Below are positions 13,659-28,333 of a DNA stretch of 64,000 bases, one piece after another. Every line of letters begins with the position of its first letter. The first letter of the stretch is position 1. The stretch lies in the NCBI RefSeq assembly GCF_023278185.1, contig NZ_CP066356.1:2100001-2164000 (forward strand). Reading direction: 5' to 3'. Position numbers and translations under genes: made by a program. This DNA is from Bradyrhizobium elkanii USDA 76 (GTDB taxonomy: Bacteria; Pseudomonadota; Alphaproteobacteria; Rhizobiales; Xanthobacteraceae). Under the pieces are notes generated by a model. It worked only from the letters and a program-made list of their open reading frames with translations. It was not told where the DNA came from and ran no database searches.

Positions 13659-14132
13659 TCAGCCGCGCAGCGCGGTCTCGGGAATGGTGCGACGAACCAC
13701 CTCGCGCATCGCGAAGCTGGAATGGATGCGGGCGACGCCCGGCATCCGCGACAGATGCTGCTTGTGGATGCGCTCGAAGTCGGCGATGTCGCGGGCGATC
13801 ACCTGCAGATGATAGTCGTCGCTGCCCGACATCAGATGGCAGGACACGACGTCGGGGCAGCGCGCGATCGCGGCCTCGAAGGCTGCGAGATAATCCTCGC
13901 TCTGCTTTTCCAGCGTGATGGTGACGACGACGGTCGTCACGAGGCCAAGCGCTGATGGTTCGAGGTCGACGCGGTAGCCGCGGATCACGCCGATCTCCTC
14001 GAGATGGCGGATGCGCCGCGCGCAGGCGGTCGGCGACAACCCGACCTTCTCGGCAAGCTCGATCTGGCTGGCGCGGGCATCAGCGACCAGCTCGGCGAGG
14101 ATTCTGAGGTCGATACGATCGAGACCGTCCAC
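13659..14132 (-). CDS. Lrp/AsnC-family regulator of alanine dehydrogenase
   Basis: A 157-residue protein, the usual Lrp length. The GTG at 14132 (VDGLDRIDLRILAELVADAR) is chosen because AAGGA lies eight bases upstream and the helix-turn-helix then begins at the normal distance; an in-frame ATG at 14231 would add 33 residues unlike the family. The DNA-binding segment is IELAEKVGLSPTACARRIRHLEE. A ligand-binding RAM domain follows (VTTVVVTITLEKQ, GSDDYHLQVIARDIADFERI). It is divergent from ald with a 140-bp gap. Lrp-type regulators of ald respond to alanine and activate it. Confidence 0.9.
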   Translation of the reverse strand: MDGLDRIDLRILAELVADARASQIELAEKVGLSPTACARRIRHLEEIGVIRGYRVDLEPSALGLVTTVVVTITLEKQSEDYLAAFEAAIARCPDVVSCHLMSGSDDYHLQVIARDIADFERIHKQHLSRMPGVARIHSSFAMREVVRRTIPETALRG

Positions 14133-14272
14133 GCAGATTTCCTTCAAGAGCTGAGCTGAATGCGAAGGATATGAGCGTATTTGACTGTGAGCAAGCCGGA
14201 AATCGCTGAGAAACGCCATGTGACGGGGCATAGCCTTAAGGCTGGCGGAAACGAATCCTCAAGGAGCGGACC

Positions 14273-15388
<1,116 letters not shown>

Positions 15389-15572: not shown

Positions 15573-15662
15573 GTAGCCCGGATGCAGCGAAGCGAAATCC
15601 GGGGCCGATCTCTTCGTGGAGGGAGACTGACCCCGGATTTCGCTTCGCTTCATCCGGGCTAC
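15573..15662. repeat. Palindromic repeat, family C; supplies the stop of the IclR gene
   Basis: The arms GTAGCCCGGATG and CATCCGGGCTAC bracket an inner pair AGCGAAATCCGGGG / CCCCGGATTTCGCT and a central loop. Its last bases give the TAG stop (15659-15661) of the minus-strand IclR gene, so the repeat has joined the end of that coding sequence. I recall elements with this GTAGCCCGGATG core as common in Bradyrhizobium. Confidence 0.75.
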
Positions 15663-16429
15663 GGCGCTTCACTTGTCAGTTCTTTCAGCCGGCTCTGCAT
15701 CACCTCGATGATGTGCGCGCGCTTTGCCGCGATGCGTTCGATCGGGCCGCCAATGCCGATAGCCAGCGGAGCGCGTCGCTTCGGCAGGGGAACGAGCATG
15801 CCTATCGTGCTTGCGCCCGGCGTCGTGCGGCCGCCTGACTCGGAATAGCCGCGGCGGCGAATGCGCTCGACCTCCTCGAGAAAGGCGGATTCGCGAACGC
15901 GCGCCGATTGACTCGGCTCCTCGGCATTGTTGCGGCGGATAATGCCGCGAATTTTGGTGTTCGGCATTTGGCTCAGCAGCACATGTCCGAGCGCGGTCCG
16001 CACCATCGGCCGTATTTGACCGGCTTGTGCTGTGTACTGAAGCTGAGAGCCGCCGGGGACAACGTGCAGATATTGCATCCCGGCGGCGCCGGCCTGTTGT
16101 CCGAGCATGACGGTTTCGCCGCCCGTCGCGGTCCAGAGTTCCTCCATCAGATCGGTGAGCTTGGTATCACGGAACGGGGAACGACGGATCCAGTCACCCA
16201 GCAGATTGACCCGGTAGCTCGGGATGAAAAGCCGGGTCTTTCGCTCGTATTCGAGGTAGTTCAATTCGACGAGACATCGAAGCAACACCGACGTGCTCGA
16301 TTGGGGCATCTCCAACGCGGACGATATTTCGGTCACGGAAGCAGCCCGCTTTGTTTTCCGAAAGAACTCCAGAACTGCAAACGTCCGCATGGCCGATTTG
16401 ACGATGGCCGTCTTATTCGGATTCGGCAT
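15659..16429 (-). CDS. IclR-family transcriptional regulator
   Basis: A 256-residue IclR protein. The N-terminal winged helix is at residues 10-75 (AMRTFAVLEFFRKTKRAASV, then EISSALEMPQSSTSVLLRCL). The effector domain runs from about residue 90 (DLMEELWTATGGETVMLGQQ, GHVLLSQMP, GGPIERIAAKRAHIIEVM). GAGGAG lies 6 bases before the ATG at 16429. It is divergent from leuC by 145 bp, and a perfect palindrome lies in that gap. It is therefore the likely local regulator of the leuCDB-transporter operon. IclR members usually sense small carboxylates or aromatic acids. The last codons come from an intergenic repeat. Confidence 0.9.
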   Translation of the reverse strand: MPNPNKTAIVKSAMRTFAVLEFFRKTKRAASVTEISSALEMPQSSTSVLLRCLVELNYLEYERKTRLFIPSYRVNLLGDWIRRSPFRDTKLTDLMEELWTATGGETVMLGQQAGAAGMQYLHVVPGGSQLQYTAQAGQIRPMVRTALGHVLLSQMPNTKIRGIIRRNNAEEPSQSARVRESAFLEEVERIRRRGYSESGGRTTPGASTIGMLVPLPKRRAPLAIGIGGPIERIAAKRAHIIEVMQSRLKELTSEAP

Positions 16430-16463
16430 GGCTGGCTCCTCGGCGGGTCAAGTACCGCACCTC

Positions 16464-16479
16464 CATCACATATGTGATG
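16464..16479. promoter_or_regulatory. 16-bp perfect palindrome, candidate IclR operator
   Basis: CATCACATATGTGATG is fully self-complementary. It lies 35 bp upstream of the IclR start and 96 bp upstream of the leuC start, in the shared divergent promoter region. Size and position fit an IclR binding site that would control both directions. Confidence 0.55.
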
Positions 16480-16574
16480 TTAGGGCAAAACTGCTTCACT
16501 TGACGACAACTTTGGCTCAGATTGGCGTCAATAAGATCAAGCCGCATGGAAACGCACAGAGCAGGGGAAGGCGG

Positions 16575-17978
16575 ATGCCCGGCCGAAGTTTGCTCGAGAA
16601 GATCTGGGACCAGCACGTCATTGCTCGCCTCAGCGAGGACACTGACCTCCTTCATATCGACCGCCATCTGCTGCACGATCTCGGCGGTTCGCGCGGCCTG
16701 CTCGATCTCAAGAGCCGGGGCCTCAAGGTCCACAATCCCGAATTGACCTTTGCGACGCCGGATCACGCGCTGTCCACGGCGCCCGGCCGCGCCGGAACCA
16801 GCAAGATCGGACTGGAATTGCTGGCGGCGCTGCGGGTCGAGACCTCGGCGAGCGGCATCACGCTGTTCGATGTCGATCAGCCCGGCCAGGGCATCGTCCA
16901 CGTCATTGGTCCGGAACTTGGCTTGAGCCTGCCGGGCGCCACCATCGTCTGCGGCGACAGCCACACCTGCACCCATGGCGGCTTGGGGGCGCTCGCCTTC
17001 GGCATCGGGTCGAGCGAGCTCACCCATGTGCTGGCGACGCAGGCGCTGATCCAGCGCCGTCCGAAGACGATGCGCGCGCGCTTCGAGGGCAAGCTGCCGC
17101 TCGGCGTCACTGCCAAGGACATGATCCTGGCGCTGATCGGCCATATCGGCGCTGCCGGCGGCACCGGCTATGCGGTCGAATATGCCGGCAGTGCGATCCG
17201 CGCGCTGCCGATCGAGGGCCGGCTGACGATCTGCAACCTCTCGATCGAGCTCGGCGCCAAGATGGGCATGGTGGCGCCGGACGAAAAGACGTTCGAATTC
17301 CTCCGCGGCCGTCCCTATGCGCCGCAAGGCGAGATGTGGGATCTCGCGGTGAAAGCGTGGCGCGAACTACCGAGCGATCCCGACGCGGTATTCGATCGCG
17401 AGGTCGTGATCGACGTCGAGAAGATCATCCCGCAAGTGACCTGGGGCATCAGCCCCGAGCACGTCGTCGGCGTCGACGGCATGATTCCCGATCCGAAGGC
17501 GGTCGACGATCCGTTGCGGCGCGCCGCGATCGAGACCGCGCTGGAGTATATGGGCCTGCAGGGCGGGGCGCCGATCGCGGGCACGCCGGTCGATTGGGTG
17601 TTCATCGGCTCCTGCACCAACAGCCGGCTCAGCGATCTGCGCGCCGCGGCCGAGGTCGCCCGCGGCCGCAAGGTCGCGGCCGGGGTCCGCGCCTGGGTGG
17701 TGCCGGGTTCGGAGAACGTCAAGCGCGAGGCGGTCGCCGAAGGGCTCGACAAGATCTTCATCGACGCCGGCTTCGAGTGGCGCGAGCCGGGCTGCTCGAT
17801 GTGCCTTGCCGCCAATGGCGAGGTGGTGGCGCCCGGGCAGCGCTCGGTCTCGACCTCGAACCGCAATTTCGTCGGCCGGCAAGGGCCGCGCGCGCGGACG
17901 CATCTGGCGAGCCCCGCGAGTGCCGCGGCATCCGCCATTGCCGGCGCGATCGCCGATGTCAGGATGATGGGACGCTAG
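16575..17978 (+). CDS. leuC: LeuC-type large subunit of an isopropylmalate isomerase-like hydro-lyase
   Basis: A 467-residue aconitase-family protein. The first part has HIDRHLLHDLGG, and CGDSHTCTHGGLGALAFGIG holds one cluster ligand. The other cluster cysteines are in GSCTNSR (about residue 350) and GCSMC (about residue 408). It therefore has a complete 4Fe-4S site. With LeuD it would shift the hydroxyl of a 2-alkylmalate. The ATG at 16575 follows GGGGAAGGCGG and is preferred over a longer open frame that is antisense to the IclR gene. Local IclR control and the linked ABC importer suggest a catabolic paralogue rather than the leucine-biosynthetic copy. That is inference. Confidence 0.88.
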   Translation: MPGRSLLEKIWDQHVIARLSEDTDLLHIDRHLLHDLGGSRGLLDLKSRGLKVHNPELTFATPDHALSTAPGRAGTSKIGLELLAALRVETSASGITLFDVDQPGQGIVHVIGPELGLSLPGATIVCGDSHTCTHGGLGALAFGIGSSELTHVLATQALIQRRPKTMRARFEGKLPLGVTAKDMILALIGHIGAAGGTGYAVEYAGSAIRALPIEGRLTICNLSIELGAKMGMVAPDEKTFEFLRGRPYAPQGEMWDLAVKAWRELPSDPDAVFDREVVIDVEKIIPQVTWGISPEHVVGVDGMIPDPKAVDDPLRRAAIETALEYMGLQGGAPIAGTPVDWVFIGSCTNSRLSDLRAAAEVARGRKVAAGVRAWVVPGSENVKREAVAEGLDKIFIDAGFEWREPGCSMCLAANGEVVAPGQRSVSTSNRNFVGRQGPRARTHLASPASAAASAIAGAIADVRMMGR

Positions 17979-17981
17979 AGT

Positions 17982-18632
17982 ATGCCAAAACCGTTCGACA
18001 AGCTCACCGCAACCGCCGCGCCGATCATGCGCGGCAATATCGATACCGACGTCATCATCCGCATCGAGCGCCTGGTCGGCAATTCGATCCGCGGCACGCT
18101 CGGCAAATGGGCGTTCGGCTCGCTGCGCTATCTGCCCGACGGCTCGGAGAATCCGGAGTTCATCCTGAACCGCGAGCCGTATCGCGAGGCGGAGATCTTG
18201 GTGACCGGGCCGAATTTCGGCTGCGGCTCCTCGCGCGAGGGCGCGGTGTGGTCGCTGCAGGAGCGCGGCATCCGCGCCATCATCGGCTCCGGCTTCGGTG
18301 ACATCTTCTTCGCCAACTGCTTCCAGAACGGAATCCTGCCCGTCATCGTCGACAAGGCGGTGGTCGATCAGCTTGCCGCCGATATCGAGGCGACGCAGGG
18401 CGCGGGCAAGGTCTCGATCGACCTCGAGGCCCAGACCATCGTCTCGCCGTCGGGCGCGCGGCATTCGTTCGAGATCGATCCGCGGCGGCGCGAGGGGCTG
18501 CTGAAGGGGCTCGACGAGGTGGCGCTGACGCTGCAGCGCGACGACGAGATCCACGCCTTCCAGGCCTCCGACCGCGCGGCGCGGCCATGGATTCATTCGA
18601 CAACGACACCCGCTTCGAGGACACCGGCATGA
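17982..18632 (+). CDS. leuD: LeuD-type small subunit
   Basis: A 216-residue swivel-domain subunit that pairs with LeuC. It has GNIDTDVIIRIERLVG, the substrate-loop region FGCGSSREGAVWSLQERGI and GSGFGDIFFANCFQNGILP, all typical of LeuD. Only three bases separate it from the leuC stop, so the two are cotranslated. Its stop overlaps the start of leuB by ATGA. The tail after residue 195 (RAARPWIHSTTTPASRTPA) is rich in Thr, Ser and Pro and looks like an unconstrained extension produced by the overlap. Confidence 0.88.
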   Translation: MPKPFDKLTATAAPIMRGNIDTDVIIRIERLVGNSIRGTLGKWAFGSLRYLPDGSENPEFILNREPYREAEILVTGPNFGCGSSREGAVWSLQERGIRAIIGSGFGDIFFANCFQNGILPVIVDKAVVDQLAADIEATQGAGKVSIDLEAQTIVSPSGARHSFEIDPRRREGLLKGLDEVALTLQRDDEIHAFQASDRAARPWIHSTTTPASRTPA

Positions 18633-19762
18633 GCACGCAATCCAACATGGTCAAGGTCGCCGTGGTCGGCGGCGAGGGCATCGGCCCCGAGGTCACCGCG
18701 CAGTCGCGCCGGGTGCTCGACTGGTTCGCGGCGAAGCGTAACGTGCCGATGACGCTGCGCGAGGCGCAATACGGCCTGATCCCGTATCTGGCGACCGGCA
18801 AGGTGCTGCCCGAAGATACCGCCGAGGCGATGGACGAGGCTGACGCGATCCTGTGGGGCGCGACCGGCGGCCCGGAGACCACCGAAGTGCCGGCCGCGGC
18901 ACGCAAGGCCGGCAGTCTGCTGGGCCTGCGCAGCAAATACGATCTCTACGCCAATCTGCGGCCGATCGTGGCGAGCCCGGCACTGTCGGCCTCCGCGCCG
19001 CTCAAGGCCGAGGTGCTCGACGGCGTCGATTTCGTCATCATCCGCGAATTGACCAGCGGCATCTATTTCGGCGAGCCGCGCGGCATCGAGACGCTGCCCG
19101 ACGGCCAGCGCCGCGGTTTCAACACCGAGCAATACACCACGAACCAGATCCGCCGCGTGGCGCGCTCGGCCTTCGAGCTGGCGCGGACCCGGCGCAACAA
19201 GGTCTGCTCGGTCGACAAGGCCAATGTGCTCGAGACCAGCGTCGTGTGGCGCGAGGAGGTGATCAAGCTGCACAAGGAGGAGTTCTCCGATGTCGAGCTG
19301 ACCCATCTCTATGTCGACAACGCCGCGATGCAGATCGTGCGCGAGCCGCGGCAGTTCGACGTGATGGTGACCGGCAATATCTTCGGCGACATCCTGTCCG
19401 ACTGCGCGGCGATGGCTTCAGGCTCGCTCGGCATGCTGCCGTCGGCCTCGCTCGGCCCGGTCGATCGCTTCGGCCGGCGCAAGGCGCTGTACGAGCCGGT
19501 GCATGGCAGCGCGCCCGACATCGCGGGCAAGGGCATCGCCAATCCGCTCGGTTCGATCCTCAGTGTTGCGATGCTGCTGCGACTGACGCTGAACCGGCCT
19601 GAGGATGCCGACCTGCTCGAGAAGGCGGTGCAGACCGCGCTGGCCTCCGGCGCGCGCACGGCCGATATCGCCGAGGCCGGAGCGAAAAAGCTGTCGACCG
19701 TGCAGATGGGCGATGCGGTGCTCGGCGCGCTCGACAAGATCTCGGCCAAGGAGCACGCGTGA
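18629..19762 (+). CDS. leuB: LeuB-type 3-isopropylmalate dehydrogenase-like oxidoreductase
   Basis: A 377-residue beta-decarboxylating dehydrogenase that would oxidise a 3-alkylmalate with NAD. Present are GGEGIGPEV, IIRELTSGIYFGEPRG, SVDKANVLETSVVWREEV, VDNAAMQIV and FGDILSD, with the metal-binding aspartates kept. Some conserved LeuB residues differ: VTGNIFGD instead of the usual VTENxFGD, and LSDCAAM instead of LSDEAS. The ATG at 18629 overlaps the leuD stop (ATGA) and has GAGGAC upstream; an ATG at 18587 lies inside leuD. The changes near the active site support a related but different substrate, such as another 3-alkylmalate or tartrate-like acid. Confidence 0.85.
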   Translation: MSTQSNMVKVAVVGGEGIGPEVTAQSRRVLDWFAAKRNVPMTLREAQYGLIPYLATGKVLPEDTAEAMDEADAILWGATGGPETTEVPAAARKAGSLLGLRSKYDLYANLRPIVASPALSASAPLKAEVLDGVDFVIIRELTSGIYFGEPRGIETLPDGQRRGFNTEQYTTNQIRRVARSAFELARTRRNKVCSVDKANVLETSVVWREEVIKLHKEEFSDVELTHLYVDNAAMQIVREPRQFDVMVTGNIFGDILSDCAAMASGSLGMLPSASLGPVDRFGRRKALYEPVHGSAPDIAGKGIANPLGSILSVAMLLRLTLNRPEDADLLEKAVQTALASGARTADIAEAGAKKLSTVQMGDAVLGALDKISAKEHA

Positions 19763-20823
19763 TGGCTGGCGTCACCATGCCCCACATTTCGCGGCGATCG
19801 GCGCTGACGGTGATCGCCGCCGGTGGCGCGGCGCTGGCGACCGGGCGTGCGTTGGCGCAGGCGGCCGCGGGCCGGGCGATCTATCCGGTCGCGGTGCCGG
19901 TCTATCAAACGCAATTTGTTGCCGACCGTATCGGCTACTTCAAGGAGGCCGGGCTCGACTGCAAGCTGGTGCAGGGCGGCAGCGGTGTGAAGACCCGCGA
20001 GATCATCGCCTCGTCGCAGGGCGATATCGGCATCGGCGACGTCACCCATCCGATGCAGCTGACCAATCACGGCCGCGCCGCGCGCGTGTTGTTGCCGGTC
20101 GACACGCGATCGAACTCGGTGATGTTCATCCTGCGCAAGGATCTGAAGGACCAGGGCATCAACTCGCTGGAGGCCTTCACGCAATGGAAGCGGCCCGACG
20201 GCCGCAAGCCGATCGTCTCGGTCTCCTCGCTCGGCGGCACCAACCATGTCTGGTCGTCCTACTACATGGAAACCATGGGGCTCGACGACAAGGTGACCTG
20301 GATCGGCACCGGCAATGTCGACACCATGCTGGGATCGCTGAAGTCGAAGCAGGTCGATATCCTCGTCAGTTCGCTGTCGCTGTTGAACGAGGCGCAGCAG
20401 CAGGGCTGGGGCGAATTGTTGTTCGACGGCACCGACGAGGCGATCTGGAACAAGCATATCGGCGGCAAGGTGCCGGTGACCGCGCATTTCACGCTGCAGG
20501 CCACCATCGACAAGGACCCGGCCAAGATGCAGGCCTACGTCACCGCGCTGTGGCGCGCCTCGCAGTGGATCAAGACCCACAAGCCGACCGAGGTCTACGA
20601 CGCCATCGAGCCCTATGTCGGCAGCACCTCGCGCGAGGCCAATCTGCTGGAGATCACGTCGATCCAGAAGGTCGCGGACTATGAGGGCTCGATCGACGCC
20701 GCAAGCTTCGCGCGCGGCGAGAAAGTCTGGTTCCGCGAGATGACCGGCATCAAGCCGCTCAAGATCGCCGACGTGGTCAATTCCAGCCTGATCGAAGCGG
20801 CGCGAAAGGCCTATCCGGGTTGA
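19762..20823 (+). CDS. ABC transporter substrate-binding protein (NitT/TauT type, Tat-exported)
   Basis: A 353-residue periplasmic binding protein of the SsuA/TauA/NMT1 type. The N-terminus has a twin-arginine motif (HISRRSALTVIAAGGAALAT) and cleavage near ALAQA. The fold signature is VYQTQFVADRIGYFKEAGLD and VTHPMQLTNHGRAARVL. The ATG at 19762 shares its A with the leuB stop (TGATG) and has AAGGAG eight bases upstream; a GTG at 19759 is the alternative. Members bind small sulfonates, nitrate, aromatic acids or pyrimidine-like compounds. Its coupling to leuCDB suggests it captures the substrate of that pathway, probably a carboxylate. Confidence 0.88.
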   Translation: MAGVTMPHISRRSALTVIAAGGAALATGRALAQAAAGRAIYPVAVPVYQTQFVADRIGYFKEAGLDCKLVQGGSGVKTREIIASSQGDIGIGDVTHPMQLTNHGRAARVLLPVDTRSNSVMFILRKDLKDQGINSLEAFTQWKRPDGRKPIVSVSSLGGTNHVWSSYYMETMGLDDKVTWIGTGNVDTMLGSLKSKQVDILVSSLSLLNEAQQQGWGELLFDGTDEAIWNKHIGGKVPVTAHFTLQATIDKDPAKMQAYVTALWRASQWIKTHKPTEVYDAIEPYVGSTSREANLLEITSIQKVADYEGSIDAASFARGEKVWFREMTGIKPLKIADVVNSSLIEAARKAYPG

Positions 20824-21653
20824 GCGCGCTCGAGACAAGCGCAACCGTGTCGCCGCGCGCCCCGGCCGATCGCCGCGTCGAGGTCAAGGGCCTGAGCAAG
20901 TCGTTCCAGCTTGCCAAAACGACGATCGAGGCGGTCCGCGACGTGACCTTCGACGTCCGCCGCGGCGAGTTCGTCGCGCTGCTCGGGCCGTCGGGCTCCG
21001 GCAAGAGCACGGTGCTCAACATGATCGCCTCGCTGATCCGCCCCACCGGCGGCGAGATCCTGATCGACGGCAAGTGCGTCGTCGCCGGCAAGGCGACGCC
21101 CAATGTCGGCTATGTCTTCCAGCGCGACACGCTGTTTCCATGGCGGACCGTCGGCGACAATATCGGCTACGGGCTGGAGCTATCAGGCGTGCCGGCTCAC
21201 GAACGGAAGGAGCGCATCGCCGAATGCGTCGCGCAAGCGGGCCTGAAGGGATTCGAGAACGCCTATCCGTCGGCGCTGTCGGGCGGCATGCGGCAGCGCG
21301 CGGCGCTGATGCGGACGCTGATCGTCGAGCCGCAGATTCTCCTGATGGACGAGCCGTTCGGCGCGCTCGACACCCACACCAAGATTGACATGCACGAGGT
21401 GCTGCTTCGGATCTGGGAACGCGAGCAGCAGACCGTGCTGTTCGTGACCCACGATCTCGGCGAGGCGCTGACATTGGCCGACCGCATCATCCTGTTCTCG
21501 GCGCGGCCGGGCCGCATCAAGGACATGTTCGAGGTCGACTTCGTGCGCCCGCGCGATGCGGTGAAGGTGCGCGAGACCCCGCATTATGCCGAGCTGTTCC
21601 AGCACATCTGGCATTCTCTGGGCGAGGAATTCGTCAAGGGCCGCAGCGCATGA
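20820..21653 (+). CDS. ABC transporter ATPase (NitT/TauT type)
   Basis: A 277-residue ATPase with Walker A GPSGSGKST, Q-loop VFQRDTLFPW, signature LSGGMRQR, Walker B ILLMDEPFGALD and switch histidine FVTHD. It belongs to the SsuB/TauB group by FPWRTVGDNIGYGLEL. The likely start is TTG at 20820, which overlaps the stop of the binding protein (TTGA); AAAGG lies upstream. It powers the adjacent permease. Confidence 0.9.
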   Translation: MSALETSATVSPRAPADRRVEVKGLSKSFQLAKTTIEAVRDVTFDVRRGEFVALLGPSGSGKSTVLNMIASLIRPTGGEILIDGKCVVAGKATPNVGYVFQRDTLFPWRTVGDNIGYGLELSGVPAHERKERIAECVAQAGLKGFENAYPSALSGGMRQRAALMRTLIVEPQILLMDEPFGALDTHTKIDMHEVLLRIWEREQQTVLFVTHDLGEALTLADRIILFSARPGRIKDMFEVDFVRPRDAVKVRETPHYAELFQHIWHSLGEEFVKGRSA

Positions 21654-22522
21654 AGAGGTACGGCACGCTCGGCACGGTCGGCTGGCAGGTCCTGATCTGC
21701 GCCGTCGTGCTGTCGGTCTGGCAATGGGGCTACGACCTCCGCACCAGACTGCCCTGGCTGGTGCCCGACCTGCTCGATCCCTACTTCATCTCGAAGCCGT
21801 CGATGATCTTCGACAACTTCCTGATCCAGAGCTGCCTGACCTCGAAGCTCGGCGCCTTCAACAGCTGGTTCAACGGCGACTTCGGAAAGTGTCTGGCGCG
21901 CAACGAGAACAATCTCTGGGCCGCGACCGCCATCACCCTGAAGAATACCTTCTTCGGCTTCGTCACCGGCGTGGTCAGCGGCTTCGTCGCCGGGCTGATC
22001 CTGGGACGATCCGACCGGCTGAGCGCGATCTTTCAGCCCTTCATCACCGCGGTGAACTCGATCCCGCGGATCGCGCTGGCGCCGATCATCGTGCTGGCAT
22101 TCGGGATCGGCGACATGTCGAAGATCGTGACGTCCTGGATCGTCGTCGTGTTCCTGGTGTTCTTCAACACTTTCGAGGGCGCGCGCTCGATCGACGAGGG
22201 TTTCACCAATGCCGCGCGGCTGCTCGGCGCCAGCGAGTGGCAGATCACCCGGACGGTGGTGATCCCCTCGACGATGGCCTGGGTGTTCGCCTCGCTGACG
22301 CCTGCGATCTCCTTCGCGCTGATCGGCGTGATCGTCGGCGAGTTCATCGGCGCCGAGCGCGGCATCGGCCGCCTCATCATCGAATCGGAGGCGCGCGGCG
22401 AGGCCTCGGGCATGATGGTTGCTGTCGTGGTGCTGATGCTGGTCGGTGTGGTGCTGTCGGCGATCATCTGGCGGTTGCAGGCCTATCTGTTGCGCTGGCA
22501 GCGGCAGCGCAGCGCCGAGTAG
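21650..22522 (+). CDS. ABC transporter permease (NitT/TauT type)
   Basis: A 290-residue inner-membrane permease with about six segments. The binding-protein-dependent transport signature is GASEWQITRTVVIPSTMAW, the coupling helix that docks on the ATPase. Its start overlaps the ATPase stop by ATGA (21650-21653), which completes the IclR-controlled leuC-leuD-leuB-SBP-ATPase-permease operon. An inserted periplasmic loop with two cysteines (SCLTSKLGAFNSWFNGDFGK) between segments 1 and 2 is longer than in SsuC and may mark a specific subfamily. Confidence 0.88.
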   Translation: MKRYGTLGTVGWQVLICAVVLSVWQWGYDLRTRLPWLVPDLLDPYFISKPSMIFDNFLIQSCLTSKLGAFNSWFNGDFGKCLARNENNLWAATAITLKNTFFGFVTGVVSGFVAGLILGRSDRLSAIFQPFITAVNSIPRIALAPIIVLAFGIGDMSKIVTSWIVVVFLVFFNTFEGARSIDEGFTNAARLLGASEWQITRTVVIPSTMAWVFASLTPAISFALIGVIVGEFIGAERGIGRLIIESEARGEASGMMVAVVVLMLVGVVLSAIIWRLQAYLLRWQRQRSAE

Positions 22523-25108: not shown

Positions 25109-26650
25109 TCAGGTCACCGGCGCCGGGTTGAACAGCGTCAGATCATTGTGGATGCCCCAGCGGTCCGACCACGGCTTGGTGCGCCCGCTCGCGACGTCGA
25201 GGATCAGACGAAACAGGTCCCAGCCGGTTTCCTCGATGGTCTTCTCGCCGGTGGCGATGCAGCCGGCGTCGAAATCGATCAGGTCCTTCCAGCGCCGTGC
25301 CAGCTCGCTGCGGGTTGCGACCTTGATGACCGGGGCGGCGGCCAGGCCATAGGGCGTGCCGCGGCCGGTGGTGAACACCTGCAAGGTCATGCCGGAGGCG
25401 AGCTGCAGCGTGCCGCAGATGAAATCGCTGGCGGGCGTCGCCGCAAACAGCATGCCCTTCTGCCGCGCCTTCTCGCCCGGCGACAGCACGCCAGCGATCG
25501 GGCCTGAGCCGGACTTGACGATCGAGCCGAGCGACTTCTCTACGATGTTGGCGAGACCGCCCTTCTTGTTGCCCGGCGTGGTGTTGGCGCTGCGGTCGGC
25601 GCCGCCGCGGGCGAGATAGGCGTCATACCATTCCATCTCGCGGATCAACGCGCGGCCGACATCCTCGTTGACGGCGCGGCGGGTCAGCAGCGCGATAGCG
25701 TCGCGCACCTCGGTCACTTCCGAGAACATCACGGTCGCGCCGGCACGCACCAGAAGATCCGCGGCAAAGCCCACCGCGGGGTTCGCGGTGACGCCGGAGA
25801 ATGCGTCGCTGCCGCCGCATTGCAGGCCGATCACAAGGTCAGCGGCCGGGCAGGTCTCGCGCTTGCGCGTGTTGAGCACCTTCAGCCGGGCTTCGGCCTG
25901 GGTCATGATGGCATCGACGATGGCGCCGAAGCCATCGAAGGCCTCGTCCTGCATCCGCACGATGGCATCGCCGACGCCCTCCGGCACCAGCCGTTCCGGC
26001 GCGAGCTTCTCGCAGCCGAGCCCGACGACGAGGATCTCGCCGCCGAAATTCGGATTGAGCGCGAGATTCTGCAGGGTGCGGATCGGCACCACGGCATCGG
26101 GCGCCGTGATCGCGACGCCGCAGCCATAGGCGTGGGTCAGCGGCACGACGTCGTCGACATTGGGATATTTCGGCAAGAGCTCGGCGCGGATGCGCTTGAC
26201 CGCATATTCCATCGTGCCCTTGACGCATTGCACGGAGGAGGAGATGCCGAGGATGTTCTTGGTGCCGACCGAGCCGTCGGGATTGCGATAGCCCTCGAAG
26301 GTGAAGCCCTCGAGCGGCGGCAGCGCGGGCGGCACCGCGGTCGCGACCTCGAGCTGATCGAGCGGCGGCGCGTCGGGCATGCGGATGCGTGCCTCGTCGA
26401 CCCATTCGCCGGCCAGGATCGGCGACAGCGCCGTGCCGATCACCTCGCCATAGCGGATAATGGGTGCGCCCTCGGCGATGTCTTCCAGCGCGGTCTTGTG
26501 GCCCTGCGGCACGAAGGCGCGCAGCGTCAGGCCCGAGGCGAAGCGGGAGCCGGCGGGCAGCCCGAAATCATTCACGACGATCGCGACGTTGTCGCGCTCG
26601 TTGAGCTTGATGTAGCGGGGCTGCTCCTGCGCGCCGATCGACTGGTCCAT
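25109..26650 (-). CDS. garD: Galactarate dehydratase
   Basis: A 513-residue UxaA/GarD-family dehydratase that converts D-galactarate to 5-keto-4-deoxy-D-glucarate. The N-terminal SAF domain covers about residues 10-85 ([16 protein letters not shown]). The catalytic domain begins at about 115 ([19 protein letters not shown]) and contains [28 protein letters not shown] and GKKTGL-like [17 protein letters not shown]. The conserved cysteines and histidine that bind iron are present. It is the last gene of the minus-strand sugar-acid cluster, separated from the aldehyde dehydrogenase by a repeat-filled gap. An altronate dehydratase role is the alternative, but the pathway context favours galactarate. 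Confidence 0.88.
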
Positions 26651-26674
26651 GAGGCTTCTCCTGACTTTGTTTCA

Positions 26675-26841
26675 CCTCTCCCGCTTGCGGGGGAGGCGTA
26701 GGCCGCCTTCGGCGGCCGTCCTTAAGAACGCCGAAGCGAAGCTTCGGCTGTGTCGCATCGAATGATGCGATCCGGGTGGGGGCTCCATCCACTGCATGAT
26801 TCGTGGAGAGAGCCCCCACCCCGACCCTCCCCGCAAGCAGG
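26675..26841. repeat. Composite palindromic intergenic repeat, family B, copy 2
   Basis: It begins CCTCTCCCGCTTGCGGGGGAGG and ends CCCTCCCCGCAAGCAGG, each given here in shortened hairpin form with arms near 26675-26696 and 26825-26841. Inner stems are GGCCGCCTTCGGCGGCC, CCGAAGCGAAGCTTCGG and CGCATCGAATGATGCG. The outer arms GGGTGGGGGCTC and GAGCCCCCACCC pair across a loop. It fills the gap between the semialdehyde dehydrogenase and garD. Confidence 0.75.
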
Positions 26842-26884
26842 ACGGGCGCAGCGTCTTACGCGGCTGCACTCTGTTTCAACTGCT

Positions 26885-28333
26885 TCAGCCCGGGAAGGTG
26901 TAAGCCGTCTTCACCGTGGTGTAGAACTCGCGGGCATAGGCGCCCTGTTCGCGCGCGCCGTAGCTCGAGCCTTTGCGGCCGCCGAACGGGACGTGGTAGT
27001 CGACGCCGGCGGTCGGCAGGTTGACCATCACCATGCCGGCCTCGCTGTTGCGCTTGTAATGCGAGGCGTATTTCAGACTGGTGGTGCAGATGCCCGAGGC
27101 GAGGCCGAACTCGGTGTCGTTGGAGATCGCCAGCGCCTCTTCATAATCCTTGGCGCGGATCACGCAGGCGACCGGGCCAAAGATCTCCTCGCGCGCGATG
27201 CGCATCTGATTGGTCGCCTCGGTGAACAGCGCCGGCTGCAGATAGAAGCCGGGCGTCTCGCGGTTGAGCAGCTCGCCGCCCCAATGCAGGCGGGCGCCTT
27301 CGTCCTGGCCGATCTTGATATAGCGGAGGTCCTGGTCGAGCTGGCTCTGGTCGACGACCGGGCCGACATGCACGCCGCTCTTCAGCGCGTCGTCCACGGA
27401 GAGCCCTTTCATGCGCTCGGTCATCGCGGCGACGAAGCGATCGTGAATTCCTGCTGTGACGATCAGGCGCGAAGACGCCGTGCAGCGCTGTCCCGTCGAG
27501 AAATAGGCGCCGTTGACCGCGACCTCGACCGCGACCTTCACGTCGGCGTCGTCGAGCACGACCAGCGGGTTCTTGCCGCCCATCTCGAGCTGGAACTTCT
27601 TCATGGGATTGGAGAGCACGCAGGCCTGCGCGATCTTGCGGCCGGTCTGAACCGAGCCGGTGAACGAGATCGCGGCGACGTCGGGATGATCGAGCAGGGT
27701 CTGGCCGACCACCGACCCCGAGCCGACCACGAGGTTGAACACGCCGGAGGGAATGCCGGAACGCGCGATGATCTCGGACAGCGCGTGCGCCGAGCCCGGC
27801 ACCAGCTCCGCCGGCTTGAACACGACGGCGTTGCCGTAGCAGAGCGCCGGCGCGATCTTCCAGGCCGGGATCGCGATCGGGAAGTTCCACGGCGTGATCA
27901 TACCGACGACGCCGACCGGCTCGCGGGTGATCTCGACGTCGAGGCCGGGGCGCACCGATGCGCCCTTCTCGCCCATCAGCCGCAGCGCTTCGCCGGCGAA
28001 GAACGCAAAGATCTGCCCGGCGCGCGCCACCTCGCCGATACCCTCGGGGAGCGTCTTGCCCTCCTCGCGGGCGAGCAGGCGGCCGAGCTCTTCCTTGCGG
28101 GCGAGGATTTCGACGGAAATCCTGGTCAGCGCGTCGAAGCGCTCCTGCGGCGTCGAGCGCGCCCAGGCCGGGAATGCGGCCTTCGCCGCGGCGATCGCCT
28201 TTTCGGTCTGCGCCTTGTCGGCCTTGGCGTATTCGCCGACCACATCCTTGGTGTTGGACGGGTTGATGTCCCGCGTGATGCCTGTTCCGTCGACCCATTC
28301 GCCGGCGATGAAGTTCTTCTGGTGAGCGGTCAT
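26885..28333 (-). CDS. 2,5-dioxovalerate (alpha-ketoglutarate semialdehyde) dehydrogenase
   Basis: A 482-residue aldehyde dehydrogenase. ITPWNFPIAIPAWKIAPAL and FTGSVQTGRKI form the NAD(P) fold. The catalytic Glu is in LEMGGKNPLVVLDD and the catalytic Cys in STGQRCTASSR, with the EEIFGPVACV motif near the end. It oxidises 2,5-dioxopentanoate to 2-oxoglutarate, the last step of the non-phosphorylating glucarate/galactarate route, which fits its place between gudD and garD. Related enzymes act on succinate semialdehyde, so substrate choice rests on context. It lies 19 bp downstream of gudD, with AAAGAAAGGTTGGAAAC before the ATG. Confidence 0.88.
   Translation of the reverse strand: MTAHQKNFIAGEWVDGTGITRDINPSNTKDVVGEYAKADKAQTEKAIAAAKAAFPAWARSTPQERFDALTRISVEILARKEELGRLLAREEGKTLPEGIGEVARAGQIFAFFAGEALRLMGEKGASVRPGLDVEITREPVGVVGMITPWNFPIAIPAWKIAPALCYGNAVVFKPAELVPGSAHALSEIIARSGIPSGVFNLVVGSGSVVGQTLLDHPDVAAISFTGSVQTGRKIAQACVLSNPMKKFQLEMGGKNPLVVLDDADVKVAVEVAVNGAYFSTGQRCTASSRLIVTAGIHDRFVAAMTERMKGLSVDDALKSGVHVGPVVDQSQLDQDLRYIKIGQDEGARLHWGGELLNRETPGFYLQPALFTEATNQMRIAREEIFGPVACVIRAKDYEEALAISNDTEFGLASGICTTSLKYASHYKRNSEAGMVMVNLPTAGVDYHVPFGGRKGSSYGAREQGAYAREFYTTVKTAYTFPG

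Follow-up and report, generated by a model that had tools for sequence, protein, structure and literature searches.

Six co-directional genes at positions 16575-22522 of a 64,000-nt window of the Bradyrhizobium elkanii USDA 76 genome (contig NZ_CP066356.1; genome size, ~9.5 Mb), arranged in the order leuC-leuD-leuB-SBP-ATPase-permease (SBP, substrate-binding protein), appear to encode an importer-fed catabolic module for an imported 2-alkylmalate of the citramalate class, a reading to which we assign a probability of roughly 55%. The argument is built on computed features: the gene block and its conservation, the grouping of LeuC, the rewritten stretches and retained catalytic residues of the three enzymes, the gene contexts of the paralogues, and the conservation of a predicted operator.

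Gene block and its distribution

The coordinates of the open reading frames (ORFs) and their Pfam families bear out the description given in a previous sequence-only reading of this DNA, namely a set of six genes that overlap or nearly touch. The leuC-like gene (16575-17978, plus strand, as are all six) codes for the large subunit of an aconitase-family enzyme (Aconitase domain) and ends 3 nt before the ATG of the leuD-like gene for the small subunit (17982-18632; PF00694, Aconitase_C). The ATG of the leuB-like gene for a beta-decarboxylating dehydrogenase (18629-19762; PF00180, Iso_dh), located in an ORF open from position 18587, overlaps the leuD stop codon, and each of the three subsequent ORFs overlaps the stop of the preceding one. 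These ORFs encode an NMT1-type (NitT/TauT-like) SBP (19759-20823; PF13379, NMT1_2, and PF09084), an ATPase (20820-21653; PF00005, ABC_tran), and a permease (21650-22522; PF00528, BPD_transp_1), which together have the Pfam composition of a NitT/TauT-type ATP-binding cassette (ABC) importer. No leuA was found in the block in the ORF list and Pfam scan of the window, and no PrpF or PrpD genes were seen there. Simple scans detected no sigma-70-like promoter or terminator-like site around either end of the operon, and no Rfam matches at gathering scores were obtained in the window or in the related locus L134 (locus L130 gave one sub-threshold match). In PDB sequence searches, LeuB matched isopropylmalate dehydrogenases, LeuC matched archaeal isomerases and aconitases, and the SBP matched a single “putative exported protein.”

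When 391 genomes drawn from the family were searched with the SBP (E ≤ 1e-60, five candidates scored per genome), matches came from 42 genomes, all belonging to one genus: 26 of them (B. elkanii USDA 76 included) at ≥75% identity and 16 at 34-37%. The six genes stay together in all 25 other loci with an SBP of ≥75% identity, every one of which was fetched, and the genes flanking the block vary between lineages, so the block behaves as a self-contained unit. With the same five candidates scored per genome, the two importer types never co-occur in these 26 and 16 genomes. The module is also present in Bradyrhizobium sp. CER78 (L014), in partial form on a contig-cut metagenome-assembled genome (MAG) of Xanthobacteraceae, and on a plasmid of Methylobacterium aquaticum, where the LeuC is 77% identical and a LysR gene lies upstream. 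At E ≤ 1e-175, LeuC was found in 5 of 397 genomes drawn from the order (that of USDA 76, two others of the genus, G1105, whose LeuC is lyase-linked, and G491), and the module looks rare outside the genus. A Paraburkholderia plasmid carries a similar gene order, but both its LeuC and its LeuB fall elsewhere in the trees and the SBP shares 25% identity, so that this set is probably a separate assembly. For one orthologous SBP gene (G343, C1:2935438-2936481), a TAG inside the gene is reported.

Canonical leucine genes elsewhere in the genome

The search for a second, canonical leuCDB that the sequence-only reading had called for was made in the window's own genome and located the entire set at C1:8.93-8.95 Mb, with leuC at C1:8934462 and leuD and leuB within ~13 kb of it, leuB being on the opposite strand. 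The canonical proteins are 55% (LeuC), 46% (LeuD), and 48% (LeuB) identical to those of the window and score higher against the leucine models (782.9 vs 626.7 bits for leuC, 267 vs 172.7 for leuD [TIGR00171], and 451.2 vs 418 for leuB [TIGR00169]). The window LeuC scores better with model NF009116 than with NF004016 (740.6 vs 663.5 bits), and this preference is reversed in the canonical LeuC (755.7 vs 808.9). The window leuCDB genes are neither the sole nor the main leucine copies in this genome. That they form a redundant leucine biosynthesis set, as their NCBIfam names would have it, is very improbable, given the lack of leuA in the block, its own importer, the canonical copies elsewhere, and the divergent stretches described below. 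The module resembles canonical leuCDB in its three enzyme families, reaction types, and catalytic LeuB residues but differs in having an importer and no leuA, in the separate position of its LeuC, in its rewritten contact stretches, and in being a spare copy.

Probable substrate-contact stretches

In all three enzymes, the probable substrate-contact stretches are rewritten, with the catalytic residues retained. The 28 module rows were compared with 79 comparison LeuB rows and with the LeuC proteins of at least 400 residues held by 62 of the 79 comparison loci. Residues 35-42 of LeuC, which we take to touch the substrate, read DLGGSRGL in 28/28 module rows and differ at all eight positions from the comparison consensus EVTSPQAF, each position of which is found in 61 or 62 of the 62 rows. 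In the window LeuD, IIRIERL replaces IIPKQYLK, and the motif RI[DE]R[LI] is found in 17 of 20 rows on the window's side of the LeuC tree (see below), including all 11 lyase-partnered ones, and in none of the 15 others compared; the exceptions are L199 and two module rows of the branch with a LysR gene. This stretch is presumably the counterpart of a loop in the Arabidopsis small subunit. According to PMC7308503, that loop, five residues long, sets the substrate preference.

The clear departures in LeuB fall at positions 78-95, the segment that precedes a pair of Leu residues: V78T and W/Y83T in 28/28 module rows, P92K in 27/28, and E93A in 26/28, with Glu93 present in 78 of the 79 comparison rows (the sole exception being L015). 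Leu96 and Leu97 are kept in all 28 module rows, and so are R100, R110, R138, Y145, K196, D229, D253, and D257, eight positions that we assume to be catalytic. Two further LeuB segments that the sequence-only reading had singled out as abnormal, GDILSDCAAM and VTGNIFGD, turned out to be ordinary, since Cys258 (the SDC position) is found in 21 and VTGN in 45 of the 79 comparison rows; NIFGD is rarer (6/79).

LeuC and LeuB lineages

The midpoint-rooted LeuC tree consists of 58 rows (11 of the 28 module rows and selected comparison loci, taken from genome loci, comparison loci, and 20 plasmid places among the 40 listed of 558 matching records), with canonical labels assigned by context. A split with support of 100/96 sets off 24 of these rows, the window LeuC among them: 11 module rows, which cluster together (support, 100/99), 11 rows partnered with a PrpB-like lyase, one (L157) with CoA-transferase III and HMG-CoA-lyase-like (HMGL-like) genes, and one (L199) with no resolved partner. 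None of the 28 canonical-labelled rows falls on this side. The opposite side also holds four lyase-linked rows, the CoA-transferase row L206, and L165. Partner genes were assigned by tblastn with one reference each and by annotation; the label “PrpB-like” (ICL/PEP-mutase family) derives from the scan of one protein, whose 260.6 bits fall short of the prpB cut-off (354.4 bits). L157 ties the LeuCD group directly to the CoA-transferase/HMGL pair, and L159, counted among the lyase rows, is also near CoA-transferase and HMGL genes.

The window set bears both marks of the proposed catabolic LeuCD group, the tree position and the RI[DE]R[LI] motif of LeuD. The proteobacterial clusters of LeuCD-like proteins with PrpB-like lyases share both marks, and several are importer-linked; they differ from the module in that a lyase replaces LeuB and in often having other transporters, PrpF, PrpD, and GntR. 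We know of no activity on alkylmalates for any member of this group.

In the LeuB tree, module LeuB forms a long branch off the alphaproteobacterial LeuB lineages and stands apart from two other proteins of the same genome (L012 and L013) that exceed the cut-off of the tartrate dehydrogenase model TIGR02089, which the window LeuB misses (232.4 vs 470.4 bits). Although tartrate dehydrogenase (TTC) and D-malate dehydrogenase (DmlA) are likewise beta-decarboxylating dehydrogenases and share a few residues of the specificity stretch, the window LeuB represents a separate lineage. Sister to module LeuB is a solitary LeuB of an Acetobacteraceae MAG (L015, 7953-9119), which also lacks Glu at position 93 and in whose 17-kb locus neither leuC nor leuD was found.

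Importer paralogues

The SBPs of 34-37% identity occupy 18 places in 16 genomes of the genus, all of which were fetched. They belong to the nearest paralogues of the importer (ATPase, 63-68% identity; permease, 56-62%), and in 18/18 places genes for HMGL-like and CoA-transferase III proteins lie directly upstream of the SBP gene on the same strand, with the ATPase and permease also present and LeuC in none. The HMGL and CoA-transferase names are backed by family scans of one example each and by a named plasmid locus. As a control, 15 stretches of the USDA 76 genome covering 20 other NMT1-type SBPs contained no HMGL gene and one CoA-transferase gene. HMGL/CoA-transferase pairs are able to split (R)-citramalate in the form of its coenzyme A (CoA) ester, and these clusters presumably represent an R-citramalate-like route, with CoA-ester chemistry instead of LeuCDB. 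The reactions of such cleavage are listed in PMC8307300. The importer paralogues and the partners of the LeuCD group both link, therefore, to chemistry fitting 2-alkylmalates. A literature search for the HMGL-CoA-transferase-importer cluster itself (L149-L155 and L236-L246) turned up no description.

Proposed function

The direction, substrate, product, and regulation of the pathway, as we infer them, would be as follows. The NMT1-type ABC importer would take up a 2-alkylmalate, small acids of the citramalate class being the most likely candidates; LeuCD would shift its hydroxyl group via an alkylmaleate (e.g., citraconate) to give the 3-alkylmalate, which LeuB with NAD would oxidize and decarboxylate to CO2 and a 2-oxo acid, 2-oxobutyrate if citramalate is the substrate; and the 2-oxo acid would join general metabolism. 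As a tertiary alcohol, a 2-alkylmalate is open to cleavage either by a lyase or in the form of its CoA ester; LeuCD and LeuB in succession require the secondary-alcohol isomer, and their products are a 2-oxo acid and CO2. A 2-alkylmalate could be the common denominator of the lyase, CoA-ester, and LeuCDB routes. An alkyl side chain is favored because Leu96 and Leu97 are kept. The sequence-only reading had suggested an alkylmalate- or tartrate-like acid; the alkylmalate half of this suggestion gains from the LeuC split, the specificity stretches, the conserved importer, and its paralogues, and tartrate becomes less likely because two separate proteins pass the tartrate dehydrogenase cut-off and do not group with the window LeuB.

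The window LeuB has Gly94, Tyr106, and an aromatic residue at position 103 in common with the genome's two tartrate-dehydrogenase-type proteins. A small side chain is favored only weakly by this likeness, because another paralogue, L011, likewise has Tyr106 and the aromatic residue 103. The same residues could suit imported maleate (or citraconate) being hydrated to D-malate-type acids and LeuB acting as a D-malate-type dehydrogenase that forms pyruvate or 2-oxobutyrate. A leuC gene product of Methanocaldococcus jannaschii is credited with maleate hydratase activity in PMC8307300. Nevertheless, the maleate route is distinctly unlikely: it leaves the CoA-transferase/HMGL paralogues of the importer unexplained, LeuB falls outside the tartrate dehydrogenase lineage, and two of the three residues recur in L011.

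Several observations weigh against a catabolic 2-alkylmalate module. The window LeuB passes the curated cut-off of the leuB (isopropylmalate dehydrogenase) model (418 vs 353.2 bits). Together with the kept Leu pair, which sits near the substrate side chain according to PMC8468904, this score would fit the scavenging of 2-isopropylmalate from plants or microbes and its conversion to 2-oxoisocaproate, then to leucine or energy, but this is unlikely in view of the stretches rewritten in all three enzymes relative to the comparison enzymes and the separation of LeuC from the canonical-labelled rows. The LeuC and LeuD stretches have gained Arg residues, which could point to a substrate of greater acidity. 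Since several lyase-linked LeuCD sets on the window's side adjoin PrpF, PrpD, or tripartite tricarboxylate transporter genes, that substrate might be a citrate-like or homocitrate-like tricarboxylate; with Leu96-Leu97 kept in LeuB and no PrpF or PrpD in the window's block, this is improbable. Furthermore, the LeuD motif is missing from the module's LysR branch (both rows compared read SINRM), the CoA-transferase III and HMGL-like families also act on other acids, lyase partners also accompany LeuC outside the split (4/15 rows), so that partners can be swapped, and the AlphaFold models are poor (mean pLDDT [predicted local distance difference test], 49.3 for LeuB and 44.9 for the SBP).

Against this background, citramalate would be the best-fitting substrate, with isopropylmalate and maleate as possible ones. 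A broader and more tentative proposal is that the module represents an undescribed pathway. Citramalate, or another 2-alkylmalate akin to it, might be imported from soil or the root zone and oxidatively decarboxylated by recruited LeuCDB, and the lyase, CoA-ester, and LeuCDB chemistries might be three interchangeable endings on a single catabolic LeuCD group and a single importer subfamily. No such operon is described in the open-access titles and abstract openings searched, which is weak evidence of absence, as most subscription journals lay outside the search. The database records examined for the group are named 3-isopropylmalate dehydratase and dehydrogenase, and if the module is catabolic, these labels mislead reconstructions of the leucine pathway, and Bradyrhizobium, a genus abundant in soil whose copies of the module recur in many metagenome clusters, has an unrecognized route to malate derivatives made by plants or microbes. 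As a compact unit, the module lends itself to direct testing.

A gene of the FAD-binding monooxygenase type follows the block in loci L136 and L138, which brought benzylmalate-type acids (eucomic, piscidic) into consideration; other oxygenase-like genes, judged by eye, lie downstream in further loci. The flanking genes change from locus to locus, and these acids stay a lead only.

Regulator and palindrome

As the sequence-only reading had noted, a divergent gene for an IclR-family protein (15659-16429, minus strand; PF09339 and PF01614, HTH_IclR and IclR_C), probably the local regulator, and a perfect 16-bp palindrome, CATCACATATGTGATG (16464-16479), are located at the promoter. Among 27 loci surveyed (the window, L124-L148, and L014), IclR is found in six (the window, L124-L127, and L014); nine (L140-L148) have a co-directional LysR gene 175-201 bp upstream (family scan of one), and in 12 (L128-L139) no adjacent regulator was recognized. 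The module does not, then, include IclR as a fixed component. An exact copy of the palindrome stands in 6/6 IclR loci and in 0/21 other upstream regions, and the 9.5-Mb genome has this one exact copy and three more sites at 2 mismatches; as such, perfect palindromes of 16 bp are not uncommon (three in the window). The simplest reading is that 16464-16479 is a predicted IclR operator, at which IclR would switch the operon in this lineage.

The best NCBIfam matches of the window IclR (BhcR, PcaR/PcaU, and KdgR) are all under the cut-off, and no NdgR model is among its matches, the proteins themselves not having been compared directly. The remark that IclR control is not usual for leucine synthesis leaves out of account NdgR and LtbR, IclR-type regulators that control leucine synthesis (leuCD) in actinobacteria, as stated in PMC4340878. 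An IclR gene next to leuCD is therefore not itself new, but the actinobacterial regulators govern leucine synthesis, whereas conservation of the window IclR does not follow that of its operon. In L128-L139, a TTTGAT element (12/12 loci) and an inverted repeat like GCCGYGCAAAACGGC (9/12 loci) are found ~70-145 nt upstream of leuC; a strict pattern matched in 4 of 6 genomes, a single time in each and at leuC.

Neighboring genes

On the minus strand at 25109-28333, the window encodes a galactarate dehydratase (over the cut-off) and an alpha-ketoglutaric-semialdehyde-dehydrogenase-like protein (under the cut-off), a pair that perhaps represents a sugar-acid route near the operon. At 13659-15388, an Lrp-like regulator (under the cut-off) is divergent from an alanine dehydrogenase, and an alanine dehydrogenase gene adjoins the operon in several related loci.

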